Shown here piece after piece: positions 33,011-40,726 of a stretch of 64,000 nucleotides of DNA. Every line of letters starts with the position of its first letter. The first letter of the stretch is position 1. Below the pieces are notes generated by a model, which had not been told where the DNA came from, made no database searches, and worked only from the letters and a program-made list of their open reading frames with translations. Origin of the DNA: Geodermatophilus pulveris (GTDB lineage Bacteria > Actinomycetota > Actinomycetes > Mycobacteriales > Geodermatophilaceae); NCBI RefSeq assembly GCF_900188375.1, contig NZ_FZOO01000013.1, positions 43,031 through 107,030 of the forward strand, written 5' to 3'. The translations under genes were made by a program, and so were the position numbers.

Positions 33011-34030
33011 TCACCCGACGCGCGAGGGGAGTCCAGTGGCGTGGAAGTCACCCCAGGGGGCCGTGCCGTTGTAGTCGGACTGCTGGTTGACATAGGCATA
33101 GCAGTGGGAGTCGAGGTACTCGCCCATGCCGGCGGCGGTCTCGGTCACCGCGAAGTTGATCGCCTCCCCCTTGGTGACCGAGGACTGCGCAGCCCACTGC
33201 GAGGAGCAGGCGTACGGCCCGAAGAAGTCGATCTCGCCGTCGTGGTACTCGACGAAGCCGCCGTCGGCGAGGGCGTTCCCGGACTTCGAGGGATTCGGGT
33301 AGCCGCCACCGTCGTTCGGCGACCAGGTGCCGTTCACGATGAAGACCAGTCCGTGCTCGTCGGCCACGCTGCGCAGTGTCTGGCTCAGCGCGATGGCGCC
33401 CTCCCGGTAGGCCGCCTTGTCCGGGAAGCTCGCCCAGTCGAAACCGGGGAACCACGAGCGGGACCCGAGGTCGTCGACGAACCAGCCGGCCATGTGCGGG
33501 TTCTCCGCGACCATCGTCTCCAGGACGCACCTGATCTTGTCCTGCAACACGGAACCGACCCGGAAATCGGTGAGGTGCCCACCCTGGTTGGCCCGGTGGT
33601 CCCCGGGCCACCGCGAGGTCGCCGGACCGCAGACCGACGGGTTGATCAGCATGTCGTGATAGCGGCCGTACGGGTTGTCGATGATCGGGTCGAGGTAGAT
33701 GAGGACGCTGCCGCCGCCGGCCGAGACGTCCTTGAACGCCTGGTCCTGGTAGTTGTCCCGGCCTGCCACCACGAGACCACCGGGATGCGCGTAGGCCACC
33801 GCGCCGGCCGAGGACCCGTAGAAGAGCGCCCCCGGCTGCGCAGGCAGGCTCGTGACGGTCGTGACCGCGGGCGGTGGATCGGGCGTCGGGGTGGCGGCGG
33901 TGGGCTCGGGCACCCCAGTGGTGGTGGCCAGGACGGCGACCAGGATCAGCACCGCAGCAGTCACCACCGCGAGCGCCCCGATCAGTCGCCGCGCTGCGGT
34001 GCCGGTCCAGCGTTGCCTGCCTGCGGCCAT
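33011..34030 (-). CDS. Secreted hydrolase-like protein, copy 1 of a tandem pair
   Basis: 339 residues with an N-terminal membrane anchor or signal (LIGALAVVTAAVLILVAVLA), a Pro/Thr-rich linker and one globular domain. The domain contains LIYLDPIIDNPYGRY, MAGWFVDDLGSR, LVFIVNGTWSPN and DGEIDFFGPYACSS. The spacing of Asp-rich strand ends suggests a TIM-barrel glycosidase-like fold, but I cannot place it in a numbered family. It sits at the end of the polysaccharide locus and is probably an exported polymer-processing enzyme. About 220 central residues are almost identical to the neighbouring copy. Confidence 0.75.
   Translation of the reverse strand: MAAGRQRWTGTAARRLIGALAVVTAAVLILVAVLATTTGVPEPTAATPTPDPPPAVTTVTSLPAQPGALFYGSSAGAVAYAHPGGLVVAGRDNYQDQAFKDVSAGGGSVLIYLDPIIDNPYGRYHDMLINPSVCGPATSRWPGDHRANQGGHLTDFRVGSVLQDKIRCVLETMVAENPHMAGWFVDDLGSRSWFPGFDWASFPDKAAYREGAIALSQTLRSVADEHGLVFIVNGTWSPNDGGGYPNPSKSGNALADGGFVEYHDGEIDFFGPYACSSQWAAQSSVTKGEAINFAVTETAAGMGEYLDSHCYAYVNQQSDYNGTAPWGDFHATGLPSRVG
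33141..33808 (-). repeat. Near-identical 668-bp block, copy 1
   Basis: This block matches 34232-34899 at a constant offset of 1091 bp with about four base differences seen by eye. Flanking parts of the two genes differ heavily, so the edges of identity are sharp and lie inside the coding regions. Confidence 0.9.
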
Positions 34031-34092
34031 GCTGGCCGCATCATAGGGACCGGGACGTCCGTCTCAGGGCCTCCGGGATCGCGCCTCGTGCG

Positions 34093-35070
34093 CTAGCACG
34101 AGACCCCGGGCGGGAGCCCGGTGATGCACGAGTTCCCCCAGGGAGCCACCCCGCCGAACTCGACCGTGGGCTGTCGGTTCACGTAGGCGTAGCAGCCCGA
34201 CTCGACGTACTCCGCCAGGCCCGCGGCGGTGTCGGTCACCGCGAAGTTGATCGCCTCCCCCTTGGTGACCGAGGACTGCGCAGCCCACTGCGAGGAGCAG
34301 GCGTACGGCCCGAAGAAGTCGATCTCGCCGTCGTGGTGCTCGACGAAGCCGCCGTCGGCGAGGGCGTTCCCGGACTTCGAGGGATTCGGGTAGCCGCCAC
34401 CGTCGTTCGGCGACCAGGTGCCGTTCACGATGAAGACCAGTCCGTGCTCGTCGGCCACGCTGCGCAGTGTCTGGCTCAGCGCGATGGCGCCCTCCCGGTA
34501 GGCCGCCTTGTCCGGGAAGTTCGCCCAGTCGAAACCGGGGAACCACGAGCGGGACCCGAGGTCGTCGACGAACCAGCCGGCCATGTGCGGGTTCTCCGCG
34601 ACCATCGTCTCCAGGACGCACCTGATCTTGTCCTGCAACACGGAACCGACCCGGAAATCGGTGAGGTGCCCCCACTGGTTGGCCCGGTGGTCCCCGGGCC
34701 ACCGCGAGGTCGCCGGACCGCAGACCGACGGGTTGATCAGCATGTCGTGATAGCGGCCGTACGGGTTGTCGATGATCGGGTCGAGGTAGATGAGGACGCT
34801 GCCGCCGCCGGCCGAGACGTCCTTGAACGCCTGGTCCTGGTAGTTGTCCCGGCCTGCCACCACGAGACCACCGGGATGCGCGTAGGCCACCGCGCCGGAC
34901 GGGGAGGACCCGTAGAACAGCCCGGCAGCCTGTGCCATGGTGGACGTCGGAGTGGACGAGGTCGCGGCCATGAGGGCGACCGAGGCCAGCACCGCACCGG
35001 TCACCACGGCGACCACGCCAGCCAGTCGCCGCCTCCCCGTGCCGGTCCAGCGCTTCCGGGGCACGGCCAA
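34093..35070 (-). CDS. Secreted hydrolase-like protein, copy 2 of a tandem pair
   Basis: 325 residues from TTG 35070 with GGAGGAG six to seven bases upstream. Architecture is the same as copy 1: membrane anchor (VVAVVTGAVLASVALMA), short linker, and globular domain with the same Asp-rich motifs. Within the shared core I see only about three residue changes (Ser/Asn, Gly/Trp, Tyr/His). The signal regions and C-termini have diverged strongly; this copy ends with an extra Cys. The function is unknown but probably matches copy 1. The pair lies downstream of a divergent fdh region and upstream of Wzz. Confidence 0.75.
   Translation of the reverse strand: MAVPRKRWTGTGRRRLAGVVAVVTGAVLASVALMAATSSTPTSTMAQAAGLFYGSSPSGAVAYAHPGGLVVAGRDNYQDQAFKDVSAGGGSVLIYLDPIIDNPYGRYHDMLINPSVCGPATSRWPGDHRANQWGHLTDFRVGSVLQDKIRCVLETMVAENPHMAGWFVDDLGSRSWFPGFDWANFPDKAAYREGAIALSQTLRSVADEHGLVFIVNGTWSPNDGGGYPNPSKSGNALADGGFVEHHDGEIDFFGPYACSSQWAAQSSVTKGEAINFAVTDTAAGLAEYVESGCYAYVNRQPTVEFGGVAPWGNSCITGLPPGVSC
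34232..34899 (-). repeat. Near-identical 668-bp block, copy 2
   Basis: Partner of 33141-33808 in the same orientation. Direct repeats of this length can recombine, which would delete one gene and leave a chimera. Confidence 0.9.
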
Positions 35071-35317: not shown

Positions 35318-36358
35318 TCAGCGGGTGACGGTCGACGCGTGCCCGTTCTCCCGGGCGGCGAGCCGCTCGCGCTGCGGGACGACGGTGTACTTCGGGTCCC
35401 GGGCGCTGGCCATGCCGGCCTCGAAGACGCCGAAACGGGTGAGCAGCGACCCGGCGCCGAGCAGCGTGCCCGCGACGACCGCCCCGGCCCGCCGGCGCCC
35501 GGCCACCACGGTGAGCGCCGCACCGGCCGCGGTGCAGGCCCGGGCCGCGCGCATGAAGCGTCCGGCTTTGCCCTCGTGGTAGGGCTCGCTGACGATCCCC
35601 ATGCCGTTCTCCACCCGGTGCAGGGTGGCCAGCTCGACGACCGCGCCGGTCACCGCCATCTTCCGGCAGGGCCCGGCCTCCCCGACCGGCGTCAGTGCCA
35701 TCGTGATCCCGCCACCGGCGGCCATCCCCGAGGCACCGAAGACGAACGGCAGCTCCCGGTACGCGGCGTGCCACGACGGGACGGCGGTGTTGGAGAACAG
35801 CACCCCGGTGTAGGTGGCCAGCGGACCGCCGAACAGCGCCGCGACCACCCCGCCGAACCGCTTGAGCCGCGGGAACCAGCCCAGCAGCTCGACCGCCGCG
35901 GTGGCGGACGCCGCCGCGCTGAACGGCGCCAGGATGTAGGAGCCCACCGACAGCGGCGACGTCGGCTTGAACACCCGCAGCATGTGCAGGAACCGCTCGG
36001 GCCGGCCGAGGTCGTGGATGAGGAAGACGACCGATGCGAGGGCCGCCCCGCCGGAGACGTACCGGGCGTTGCGGGTCAGCGTCGGCCGGTCGGTCACGTC
36101 GGCCAGCGATGCCAGGATCGACGAGGAGCCGGCGGCGCCGCCGAGGAACAGGTACAGCGGCACGTCCGGCGTCTTCCACACCGGCGGCTTGATGATCGGC
36201 CGGCCGTAGTAGGAGGTGAACTCGGCCTCCTCGACCATCGCCACCTCGCCACCGGGGCGGCCCCCGCCCCGCCGGCGGCGGCGCTTCTCCCGCTTGGCCG
36301 ACGGCGGGCCGTCCGCCCGCCGCCAGCCGGCCCCCGGCGTCGCCAGACCCTCGGTCAT
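35318..36358 (-). CDS. NrfD-like membrane subunit of formate dehydrogenase
   Basis: 346 residues from ATG 36358, overlapping the ferredoxin-subunit stop (ATGA). The N-terminus is soluble and very basic (KREKRRRRRGGGR), followed by YYGRPIIKPPVWK and about eight membrane helices. Family features include LYLFLGGAAGSSSILA and LIHDLGRPERFLHMLRVFKP, as in NrfD/PsrC proteins. These exchange electrons between iron-sulfur subunits and menaquinone. It is the third gene of the operon and would anchor the complex to the membrane. It has no heme-ligand pattern of the FdnI type. Confidence 0.88.
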   Translation of the reverse strand: MTEGLATPGAGWRRADGPPSAKREKRRRRRGGGRPGGEVAMVEEAEFTSYYGRPIIKPPVWKTPDVPLYLFLGGAAGSSSILASLADVTDRPTLTRNARYVSGGAALASVVFLIHDLGRPERFLHMLRVFKPTSPLSVGSYILAPFSAAASATAAVELLGWFPRLKRFGGVVAALFGGPLATYTGVLFSNTAVPSWHAAYRELPFVFGASGMAAGGGITMALTPVGEAGPCRKMAVTGAVVELATLHRVENGMGIVSEPYHEGKAGRFMRAARACTAAGAALTVVAGRRRAGAVVAGTLLGAGSLLTRFGVFEAGMASARDPKYTVVPQRERLAARENGHASTVTR

Positions 36359-37428
36359 CACGACCTCCGCGAGCCGAGGACGGCCGACAGCGCCACTCCG
36401 ACGATCATCGCCGCCGCGGCCCCGGCGGACTTCCACATGGCCGGCAGGTCCCGGGTGGTGACCACCGGGTCCGGCGGCAGCCCGTACACCTCCGGCTCGT
36501 CGAGCAGCAGGAAGAACGCCCCCGCGCCGCCGACGCCGTCGTCCTCGTCCCGGCCGTACAGCCGGGCGGTCTGCACACCCTGCGACTTCAGCGTGGCCAG
36601 CCGCGCGTCGGCGCGGGCCTGCAACTCGTCGAGGTTGCCGAACTGGATCGACTGGGTCGGGCACGCCGTCGCGCACGCCGGCTGCAACCCGTCGAGGGTC
36701 CGGTCGTAGCAGAGGGTGCACTTGAACACCCGGCCGTCGCCCTTGCGCTGGTCGATCACGCCGTACGGGCAGGCGGGCACGCAGTAGCCGCAGCCGTTGC
36801 AGATGTCCTGCTGCACGACCACGGTGCCGAACTCGGTGCGGAACAGCGCGCCGGTGGGGCAGACGTCGAGGCACCCGGCGTGCGTGCAGTGCTTGCACAC
36901 GTCCGAGCTCATCAGCCAGCGGATCTCCCGGTCGCCGGAGTGCCCGGTCTGGGGGTCGAACTGGGACAGCGACTCGGCGTTGAGCACGCTGGTCATCGCG
37001 CTCGTGACGCTGTCGCCCGGCGCGGTGTCGTCGGGGGCGTTCCCGGCGTCCTGCCGGGAGGTGGCGTCCGGCGCGGGCGGGAAGGACGGCATCGGCAGGT
37101 CGACGCTGCGGCTCTGCTCGATGAACGCCACGTGCCGCCAGCTGTTGGCGCCCAGCTGGCCGGTGTTGTCGTAGGACATGCCGGACAGCCCGATGACGTC
37201 GCGCGTGCCGTGCGCGTCGTCCATCGGCAGCAGGTTCCACTCCTTGCACGCCACCTCGCAGGCCTTGCAGCCGATGCACACCGAGGTGTCGGTGAAGAAG
37301 CCGACGCGGGCCGGGTGGTCGCTGTCGTAGCCGGCCTCCTCCTGCACGTCCGGCAGCGGCCCGTACAGCCGGTTCTTCGAGCGCCCGTCCCCGGACAGCC
37401 CGGGACTGGCCGAGCTGACCGTGGTCAC
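36358..37428 (-). CDS. Formate dehydrogenase iron-sulfur (beta) subunit
   Basis: 356 residues from a GTG. Four ferredoxin-like cysteine clusters are visible. They are CIGCKACEVAC (residues 51-61), CKHCTHAGCLDVCP, CNGCGYCVPACP, and CTLC with a later CATACP. Each should hold a [4Fe-4S] centre, giving a relay from the molybdenum subunit to the NrfD-like subunit. An insert of about 90 residues between clusters 1 and 2 contains Ser/Asp/Pro-rich sequence. The C-terminus has one hydrophobic segment (AAAAMIVGVALSAVLG) that may anchor it. It lies 25 bp downstream of the catalytic gene. Confidence 0.92.
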   Translation of the reverse strand: MTTVSSASPGLSGDGRSKNRLYGPLPDVQEEAGYDSDHPARVGFFTDTSVCIGCKACEVACKEWNLLPMDDAHGTRDVIGLSGMSYDNTGQLGANSWRHVAFIEQSRSVDLPMPSFPPAPDATSRQDAGNAPDDTAPGDSVTSAMTSVLNAESLSQFDPQTGHSGDREIRWLMSSDVCKHCTHAGCLDVCPTGALFRTEFGTVVVQQDICNGCGYCVPACPYGVIDQRKGDGRVFKCTLCYDRTLDGLQPACATACPTQSIQFGNLDELQARADARLATLKSQGVQTARLYGRDEDDGVGGAGAFFLLLDEPEVYGLPPDPVVTTRDLPAMWKSAGAAAAMIVGVALSAVLGSRRS

Positions 37429-37453: not shown

Positions 37454-40400
37454 TCATCCCTCGACCGTCCCGCGGGCGCCCACCGGCACCAGCCCCGTGG
37501 GCAGGCCGGCGCGCTGCCGGTACTCCTCGAGGAAGGTGACCAGTCCCGGGCCCCGCGGCCGGCGGCCGGGGCGGATGTCGCAGGTCGCGGCCTTGCTCTC
37601 CTGGATGTGGGTGTTCGGGTCCATGACCACCGGCAGCAGGTCGTTGGCCGAGTCGCCGGTGGAGATGCCCCGCTCGCCCCAGTGGTAGGGGACGCCGATC
37701 TGGTGCACCACGCCGCTGGCGGTGCGGATGGGCCGCATCCGCTCGGTGACCAGCACCCGCGCCTCGATCGCCGCCCGCGCGGTGACCAGCGTGGCCCACC
37801 CGGCGTTGACCAGCCCGCGTTCGGCGGCCAGCTGGGGGCTGACCTCGACGAAGAACTCCGGCTGCAGCTCCGACAGGTAGGGCAGCGTGCGGCTCATCCC
37901 GCCGGCGGTGTGGTGCTCGGTGAGCCGGTAGGTGGTGAACACGTACGGGAAGACGTCGGACGCCGACCCGTGCTCCCGGTTCCAGGGGCCCTTGATGTGC
38001 TCCATGGTCGGGTTGGACTGCACGCCGTCGTAGAGCGCGTTCTTGACCGGGGACTCGGCCGGCTCGTAGTGCGTCGGCAGCGGCCCGTCGGTCACGCCCT
38101 TGGGCGCGAACAGCCAGGCCTTGCCGTCGCCCTGCATGACGAACGGGTCCCGGCCGGACAGCGCGTCCTGCGCCTTGGCGCCGGGCGGCGGCTCGTAGCT
38201 CGGCGGCTTGGTGGCCTCGAAGTCCGGGTTGTCCCCGGTGGAGACCCACCGGCCGGCCTGCTCGTCCCACCACACGTACTTCTTGCGGTCGCTCCACGGC
38301 TTGCCGTCCGGGTCGGCCGAGGCGCGGTTGTAGAGGATCCGCCGGTTGTACGGCCAGGCCCAGCCCCACTCGGCGGCCACCGGGCCCTGCTCGCGGCCGG
38401 GCTTGCGCCGGGCGGCCTGGTTGACCTCGTCGGCGTAGACGCCGGAGTAGATCCAGCAGCCCGACGACGTGGAGCCGTCGTCCTTGAGCTCCAGGTAGCC
38501 GGAGAGCGCGCGGCCGTCGGGGCCGACGCCGTTGATCTCCCGTAGCACCGCCGCCGCGCTGGGGTCCCGCGTCTCGCCCTCCAGCGGGTAGTCCCACGTG
38601 AGGTCGAGCAGCGGGCGGTCCCGCGGGTCGGTGGAGTCCTTGAGCCGGTCGCGCAGGATGCGGCCGAGGTGGTAGTAGAACCACAGGTCGCTGCGGGCGT
38701 CGGCCGGCGGCTCGACCGCCTTGTGCCGCCACTGCAGCAGCCGCTGGGTCTGGGTGAACGTGCCGTCCTTCTCCGCGTGGCTCGCAGCCGGCATGAAGAA
38801 GACCTCGGTGGCGATCTGCTCGGTGACCATCTCACCGGTCTCGATCTCCGGCCCGTCCTTCCAGAACGTGGCCGACTCGATCATCTGCAGGTCGCGGACG
38901 ACGAGCCACTCCAGGTTGGCCAGGCCGAAGCGCTGCATGCGCCCGTTGGCGTGCCCGACCGTCGGGTTCTCCCCCACCAGGAAGTAGCCGCCGACCTTGC
39001 CCTGGATCATGTCCGCGACCGAGCGGTAGGAGCTGTGGTCGCCGTTGATCCTCGGCATGTAGTCGAACGCGAAGTCGTTCTCCGGCGTCGCGGCGTCGCC
39101 CCACCAGGCCTTGAGCAGGCTGACCATGTAGGCCCGCTTGTTGCCCCAGAACCCGGCGACGCCGGCGGCGTCGGCCACGTAGTCGTCCAGCGTCTCGTGC
39201 TGGGCCGCGTGCGGCATGGCCAGGTAGCCGGGCAGCAGGTTGAACAGCGTCGGGATGTCGGTGCTGCCCTGGATCGACGCGTGCCCGCGCAGCGCGAGGA
39301 TCCCGCCGCCGGGGCGGCCCATGTTGCCCAGCAGCGCCTGCAGGATCGCCGCCGTCCGGATGTACTGCGCGCCGACGGTGTGCTGCGTCCAGCCGACCGA
39401 GTACACCCACGCCGTCGTCCGGTCGCGGCCGCTGTTCGCGGTGACCCACTCGGCGACCTTGAGGAACACCTCGGGCTCGATGCCGCAGACCTCGGCGACC
39501 TTCTCCGGGGTGTACCGGGCGAAGTGCCGCTTGAGGATCTGGAAGACGCTCCGCGGGTGCTGCAGCGTCTCGTCGCGCTTGGGCTTGCCGTGGATCGGCG
39601 GCCCGCCGGAGCCGGAGGTCTGCGCCTGGTCGGCCTGCTTGACGGAGTACTCCTGGGAGAGCTCCTCCTGCCGGTCGGCGCGGGCCGGGTCGTCCTCGGA
39701 GACGCCGTCCCGGCCCTCCTCGCGCTCGTACTGCCAGCTGGCCTGGTCGTAGGTGTTCGTGTCCGGGTCGAAGCCGGAGAACAGGCCGTCGAGGTCCTCG
39801 GCGTCGCGGAAGCGCTCCTGCACGAGCGCGGCCGCGTTCGTGTAGGCGACGACGTAGTCCCGGAAGTACAGGTCGTTGGCCAGCACGAAGTTGATCAGCC
39901 CGCCGAGGAAGGCGATGTCACTGCCCGCGCGCAGCGGCACGTGCAGGTCGGCGATCGCGCTGGTCCGGGTGAACCGCGGGTCGATGTGCACGACCTTCGC
40001 GCCGCGCGCCTTGGCCTCGGTCACCCACTGGAAGGCGACCGGGTGGCACTCGGCCATGTTGGAACCCTCGATGACGATGCAGTCGGAGTTCACCAGGTCC
40101 TGCTGGGAGTTCGTGGCACCGCCACGACCGAACGTGGCGCCCAGACCGGGCACCGTGGCGGAGTGCTATATGCGGGCCTGGTTCTCGATCTGGATCGCGC
40201 CCATGGCGCTGTAGAGCTTCTTCATGAGGTAGTTCTCCTCGTTGTCGAGGGCTGCCCCTCCGAGGCTCGCTATCCCCATGGTGCGGTTGACCCGCTTGCC
40301 GCCGTCCTCGTCCTGCCAGTACGTGCGGCGGGCGTCCAGGACGCGGTCGGCGATCATCTCCATCGCCGTGTCGAGCTCCAGGTCCTCCCACTCCGTCCCG

Positions 40401-40726
40401 TACGGACGGCGGTACTTGACCGTGGTGACCCGGGTCGGGCTGGTGACCAGCTGCTTGCTCGCGCTGCCCTTCGGGCACAGCCGCCCGCGGCTGACCGGCG
40501 AGTCCGGGTCGCCCTCGATCTGGACGATCTGCTCGTCCTTCACGTAGATCCGCTGGCCGCAGCCCACCGAGCAGTAGGGGCAGATGCTCTGCACCACCCG
40601 GTCGGCGGTGGCCGTGCGGCTCACCACGTCCTCCGTCGCCTTGCTGCGCGCGGCGCTGCCACGACCCAGGGGGTCGGGGCCGGTCAGCTGCCGGAACACC
40701 GGCCAGGCTTCGAGCCAGGTCTTCAC
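37454..40726 (-). CDS. fdhA: Formate dehydrogenase catalytic subunit with in-frame TAG at the selenocysteine site
   Basis: 1090 residues if the in-frame TAG at 40166-40168 is read through; GTG 40726 is the likely start. Cys49, 52, 56 and 84 (CPYCSVGC, GRLCPKG) bind a [4Fe-4S] cluster. Molybdopterin domains follow. The TAG is codon 187, between ENQARI and HSATVPGLG. That is exactly where family members have selenocysteine (normally UGA) or Cys as Mo ligand; the phase is unbroken on both sides. The downstream segment continues as a full FDH alpha subunit. No Tat signal is visible, so it is probably cytoplasmic. It oxidises formate to CO2 and passes electrons to the next two gene products. Automatic callers would split the gene at GTG 40153. 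The alternative is an amber-inactivated pseudogene. Confidence 0.9.
40136..40168 (-). promoter_or_regulatory. SECIS-like hairpin following the TAG selenocysteine codon
   Basis: On the coding strand the TAG (40168-40166) is followed by an 11-nt spacer. A 7-bp stem comes next (40154-40148 with 40142-40136, one G-U pair), closing a GGTCT loop (40147-40143). The spacer length and the GGUCU loop closely resemble the enterobacterial fdhF SECIS as I remember it, where loop G and U contact SelB. A lower stem is also possible, because CCGCCACG near the TAG can pair with CGTGGCGG further downstream. Confidence 0.75.

Follow-up and report, generated by a model that had tools for sequence, protein, structure and literature searches.

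The window analysed here, a 64,000-nucleotide stretch of DNA from Geodermatophilus pulveris, contains a gene for the catalytic subunit of a formate dehydrogenase (FDH) whose reading frame is interrupted by a TAG triplet. This raises the question of whether the triplet ends translation, marks a decayed gene or is read as an amino acid, and in the last case as which one. The features concerned are the following.

37454..40726, minus strand: formate dehydrogenase alpha (catalytic) gene, read through one TAG (NF041513)
40166..40168, minus strand: in-frame TAG, codon 187, predicted selenocysteine (Sec) codon (sequence and cross-species codon comparison)
40136..40154, minus strand: SECIS-like hairpin of the FDH gene, with a 7-bp stem and a GGUCU loop at 40143-40147
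36358..37428, minus strand: formate dehydrogenase beta (Fe-S) reading frame (TIGR01582 best match, PF13247)
35318..36358, minus strand: NrfD-like membrane (gamma) subunit gene (PF03916, PF14589)

An in-frame TAG in the formate dehydrogenase gene

The first-pass annotation had counted 186 open codons ahead of the TAG, which it placed at codon 187, and 903 behind it; these figures are exact. The triplet is flanked by the residues ENQARI on one side and HSATVPGLG on the other, and the gene ends in a TGA at 37454-37456. A GTG at 40724-40726 is assumed to be the start, within a frame that is open up to 40921. When the TAG is read as cysteine, the predicted protein scores 1930 bits against NF041513 (cut-off 1400) and covers model positions 2-1067 of 1067. 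The beta frame starts 25 bases downstream of the alpha gene, and its end overlaps the gamma gene by one base. The beta protein reaches 180 bits against TIGR01582, under the cut-off of 335, and its name is based on this sub-cut-off match together with the Fe-S domains, while NCBIfam profiles gave no match to the longer gamma frame. Elsewhere in the window (33011-35064, minus strand), two adjacent genes encode proteins of ~320-340 residues that appear by eye to be nearly identical over most of their length; to judge from this visual comparison, the pair looks like a recent tandem duplication.

TAG is a normal stop which ends other genes in these genomes, and the triplet could in principle be a nonsense mutation or a sequencing error that turns the FDH gene into a pseudogene. 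However, the 903 codons past the TAG stay open, and the triplet is shared with other organisms. In a comparison restricted to the best 80 of 498 relatives, the same column holds TAG in 66 records, drawn from several genera, and TGA in the other 14, with no third codon, which upholds the earlier argument that a stop is unlikely to have fallen on this codon by chance. Moreover, three unrelated genes of the G. pulveris genome carry TAG at their own Sec or Cys sites. A pseudogene is consequently an extremely improbable explanation.

A selenocysteine tRNA with a CUA anticodon

The genes selA, selB and selD together with tRNA-Sec form the standard set of the bacterial UGA selenocysteine system. The G. 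pulveris assembly (26 contigs, given as 99.99% complete) contains one identified tRNA-Sec (G000:C15:57962-58053), which scores 64.2 bits against RF01852 (cut-off 47) and has the anticodon CUA. It is adjoined by selA (TIGR00474), selB (TIGR00475) and selD (TIGR00476), each above its cut-off. The first-pass annotation had proposed a search for exactly this anticodon and for these three genes, and all of them are present side by side. The GCACK motif of selD, read by eye in the translation, contains Cys and not Sec. RF01852 has 14 matches in the genome, and the eight that rank above the six weakest (E 0.004 to 0.8) were examined. Apart from the tRNA-Sec, these eight comprise a second match above the cut-off, which is a tRNA-Ser(UGA), and six weaker ones which are Tyr, Ser, Ser, Leu, Thr and Met tRNAs; a UCA tRNA-Sec is absent among them. 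Within the 64-kb window itself, ARAGORN reported no tRNA gene and Rfam no match above its cut-offs.

Since the anticodon of the genome's tRNA-Sec matches UAG, codon 187 of the FDH gene is predicted, with little doubt on our part, to be read as selenocysteine by this tRNA. In the proposed mechanism, SelA would convert seryl-tRNA-Sec with selenophosphate supplied by SelD, and SelB would bind the hairpin and deliver the charged tRNA to the ribosome. There, the CUA anticodon would compete with release factor 1 by pairing with UAG, while UAGs that have no hairpin would still terminate translation.

UAG is also the codon of the pyrrolysine system, where it occurs in methylamine methyltransferases and is read by a CUA tRNA. 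The two systems are alike in codon and anticodon but differ in tRNA family, enzymes and target genes. A reading of the FDH codon as pyrrolysine would agree with ARAGORN, which names the CUA tRNA tRNA-Pyl(cta), a label that we take to follow from the anticodon, and with a table row in PMC3639795, a paper about genes for pyrrolysine, in which Geodermatophilus obscurus is entered as 'Verified by Infernal*' above the footnote '* No UAG-anticodon'. However, the G. pulveris tRNA matches the Rfam tRNA-Sec model above its cut-off and no other Rfam family, and it sits beside selA, selB and selD. Furthermore, the codon corresponds to TGA in FDH relatives outside Geodermatophilaceae and to Cys in relatives of the UGSC proteins described below, and we give pyrrolysine next to no credence as compared with selenocysteine. 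In practice, a tRNA finder assigns this tRNA to pyrrolysine, and under the standard code the proteins are truncated.

Other genes with a UAG at a Sec/Cys site

Searches of the G. pulveris genome by protein family identified two UGSC proteins, in both of which TAG stands for the U of the UGSC motif, and one AhpC/TSA-type (AhpC-like) protein with TAG in the context W-TAG-PYC. A search for the CMD family gave four matches, none of which has an internal stop. The UAG genes known in this genome are therefore four including FDH, a count limited to the families searched. The AhpC-like gene contains two TAGs, separated by 192 codons:

L222:1162-1821 (G000:C9), minus strand: AhpC-like gene with TAG at the Sec site (codon 27) and TAG as stop

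These genes place G. pulveris close to a system that is already published. PMC5330540 (section 17) describes UAG in FDH and UGSC proteins of Geodermatophilaceae, citing Mukai 2016, and an AhpC of Blastococcus saxobsidens with a Sec-TAG followed by a hairpin. The first-pass annotation had named Geodermatophilus and Blastococcus as organisms with this recoding, which agrees with that account. The likeness extends to the family, the CUA tRNA-Sec, the UAG in FDH and UGSC genes, and the AhpC with its Sec-TAG and hairpin, and no essential difference from the system is known; the G. pulveris genome has two UGSC genes. The FDH gene of G. pulveris is a natural example of this published recoding. More broadly, a review (PMC10778597) states that in some species the codons recoded to Sec by the SECIS are UAG, UAA or sense codons. 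G. pulveris adds a genome-wide case to the published evidence for a natural shift of the Sec codon from UGA to UAG.

A hairpin downstream of the codon

The FDH hairpin starts 11 nt past the TAG. The hairpins of both UGSC genes start at the same distance from the codon and likewise have a 7-bp stem, with five-base loops AGUGU and AGUCU. In the AhpC-like gene, the stem is 6 bp long, the loop is GGUCC, and the hairpin lies two bases further on than those of FDH and UGSC. For counting, a hairpin was defined by an RGUNY loop, a stem of at least 6 bp and a set spacing, a definition drawn up after the hairpins had been seen. Among the best 80 of 498 FDH relatives, it is present at 65 of the 66 TAG loci, the exception being L099, and at all 14 TGA loci. 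As a background, 96 of 159,762 positions carry such a hairpin in 80 kb of G. pulveris DNA (both strands). Within those 80 kb it follows one of 363 TAG triplets, which is FDH's own, and one of 1244 TGA triplets.

The stem also shows covariation. In a set of 38 chosen rows of 81 (26 of them distinct), 98.9% of cells are paired and three of the seven pairs have changed on both sides, giving a covariation score that was reached by none of 500 shuffles. For the glycine in the loop, 66 of 67 TAG rows use the codon GGT (the remaining row has AGT), as do 14 of 14 TGA rows, compared with a share of 10.9% for GGT among the 6567 glycine codons of the TAG FDH genes. Cysteine-containing UGSC genes served as a control: from 32 loci examined, four of which gave no motif, the hairpin was found at 19 of 20 TAG loci and at none of eight TGC loci. 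The value of this control is limited: to judge by their flanks, the Cys copies seem to form a subgroup of their own, and the sole TAG member with such flanks (L231) is also without a hairpin as defined.

UAG remains in use as a stop codon

If UAG had been reassigned to Sec throughout the genome, the hairpin would be unneeded. The lack of a UGA-reading tRNA-Sec among the eight RF01852 matches examined (of 14) would fit such a change, but several groups of genes still end in TAG. Among UGSC genes with a Sec-site TAG, four of 20 also have TAG as their stop, as does one of 66 FDH loci in the best 80 of 498, in both cases with no hairpin there. In 79 family loci read around the CUA tRNA, the stop is TAG for selB in 20 of 70, at 580-587 codons from the match start, for selD in two of 71 and for selA in one of 74. 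Among rough gene calls in the window, 27 have TGA as their stop and five have TAG, namely FDH itself and four others.

The AhpC-like gene brings both uses together. A relative in another genome of the family (G024, L254) is 76% identical and has two equally spaced TAGs, and a hairpin was sought after the second TAG in G. pulveris and in G024 and found in neither. The use of TAG by one gene at a Sec site as well as for termination indicates that recoding follows the hairpin. Taken together with the UAGs that end genes of conserved length, this points to context-dependent recoding, and reassignment across the whole genome is very improbable. The explanation given in the first-pass annotation, a reassignment of Sec from UGA to UAG, accordingly stands for Sec sites that have a hairpin and does not extend throughout the genome, where UAG still stops genes. 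The AhpC-like gene, which is short and has both meanings of UAG, is a convenient system in which to test how the choice between them is made.

Distribution of codons and tRNAs among relatives

A comparison of the codon across related species, also proposed in the first-pass annotation, separates the families: TAG in Geodermatophilaceae, TGA in others. Among the best 80 of 498 relatives, the TAG records belong to Geodermatophilus, Blastococcus, Modestobacter, Klenkia, Goekera and further Geodermatophilaceae, as well as to one metagenome-assembled genome (MAG) labelled Frankiales, and the TGA records to Amycolatopsis, Streptomyces, Gandjariella, Actinopolymorpha, Actinosynnema, Kibdelosporangium and a Nocardioidaceae MAG. 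The UGA system, as seen in the FDH genes of Amycolatopsis and Streptomyces, is like that of G. pulveris in the site, the position of the hairpin and the GGUCU loop; it differs in that G. pulveris pairs UAG with CUA whereas ordinary bacteria pair UGA with UCA. In Geodermatophilaceae, Sec appears to have left UGA, which is the most frequent stop among the gene calls of the window, for the less frequent UAG, with the hairpin signal unchanged. A record labelled Bacillus sp. AZ43 (L057, unverified organism) has an FDH gene with TAG which is placed among those of Blastococcus, and is probably a mislabelled genome.

A tRNA-Sec match was obtained in 108 of 112 Geodermatophilaceae genomes, with 110 tRNAs altogether, of which 102 have the anticodon CUA (101 genomes) and eight UCA. 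Seven genomes from three genera (g5, g6 and g7) have the UCA tRNA only, and one genome (G058) has both. Four of the 112 are without a match, including two incomplete genomes (G097 and G098, 72% and 80% complete) which carry TAG FDH genes and in which we put the absence of the tRNA down to missing sequence. The 31-39 pair of the anticodon stem is C-G in all 102 CUA tRNAs and U-A in all eight UCA tRNAs of the family, although this association with the anticodon may trace to a single event and does not count as independent evidence. Because seven genomes are UCA-only, against 101 others with CUA, the distribution suggests that the codon shift from UGA to UAG took place inside Geodermatophilaceae.

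Searches for genes that the UCA tRNAs might serve covered the same families. Across 108 family genomes, UGSC gave 94 matches, spread over 53 genomes; 72 of them contain one TAG, 22 contain no stop, and TGA occurs in none. The nine genomes of g5-g7, seven of them UCA carriers, gave no match to FDH (E 1e-40) and lack the AhpC-like protein. The UGSC matches in two UCA genomes are stop-free. Hence, the searches for FDH, UGSC and AhpC-like genes revealed no partner with UGA in the genera that carry the UCA tRNA.

In the FDH tree, the TAG gene of Modestobacter sp. DSM 44400 (TAG at L116:6559-6561) is placed among the TGA genes of other families with a support of 98-99, and an AU test on this placement (32 of 81 rows) gave a p value of 0.057. 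A second change from TGA to TAG after gene transfer is a possible explanation. The loop of the hairpin in this gene is AGUCU.

A second selenocysteine tRNA in Geodermatophilus marinus LHW52908

Over 6480 bases, the genome with both anticodons (G058) agrees letter for letter with the FDH region of Geodermatophilus sp. LHW52908, which PMC12453565 lists as the G. marinus type strain. Its FDH and UGSC genes have TAG, and its CUA tRNA-Sec adjoins selB and selD. The additional elements lie together on one contig:

L122:1173-1263, minus strand: second tRNA-Sec, anticodon UCA, 81.8 bits
L122:1579-2157, plus strand: peroxidase-related CMD/AhpD-type gene with an in-frame TGA, 192 codons, TIGR01926 above cut-off

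The two adjoin in a low-GC island (~61% GC) near transposase genes, on a contig assigned to LHW52908 by the public assembly alone. The TGA stands in CFY-TGA-MESH, a CxxU-like site, and is followed by a hairpin of 6 bp with an AGUUU loop. The CMD protein matches NF041238, an AhpD-related (seleno)protein family, under its cut-off. In 120 listed of 223 homologues, the TGA column is occupied by Cys 60 times, by Trp 59 times and by Leu once; the Trp entries (e.g. P0002, P0003, P0005, P0009) are likely to be UGA selenoproteins that were mistranslated in metagenome annotation. The tRNA and CMD pair has no relative among viral contigs, and among plasmids (327 records) only matches of <60% identity. 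Its tRNA part alone is matched in 16 of 394 genomes of the class.

On balance, we favour the view that G. marinus LHW52908 uses two stop codons for Sec, with an inherited CUA tRNA for the UAG of FDH and UGSC and an imported UCA tRNA for the UGA of the CMD gene. If this is true, a mobile pair of tRNA and selenoprotein genes would have restored the ancestral Sec code to a lineage that had left it, and a single SelA/SelB set would serve both tRNA-Secs. Whether one such set can handle two Sec codons is a question that G. marinus makes testable. The use of UAG and UGA for selenocysteine in one genome was not reported in the titles and abstract openings searched, a scope outside which most subscription papers lie. 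On the contig of the UCA tRNA, Rfam also identifies an ALIL pseudoknot at L122:9125-9253 (65.8 bits, cut-off 50).
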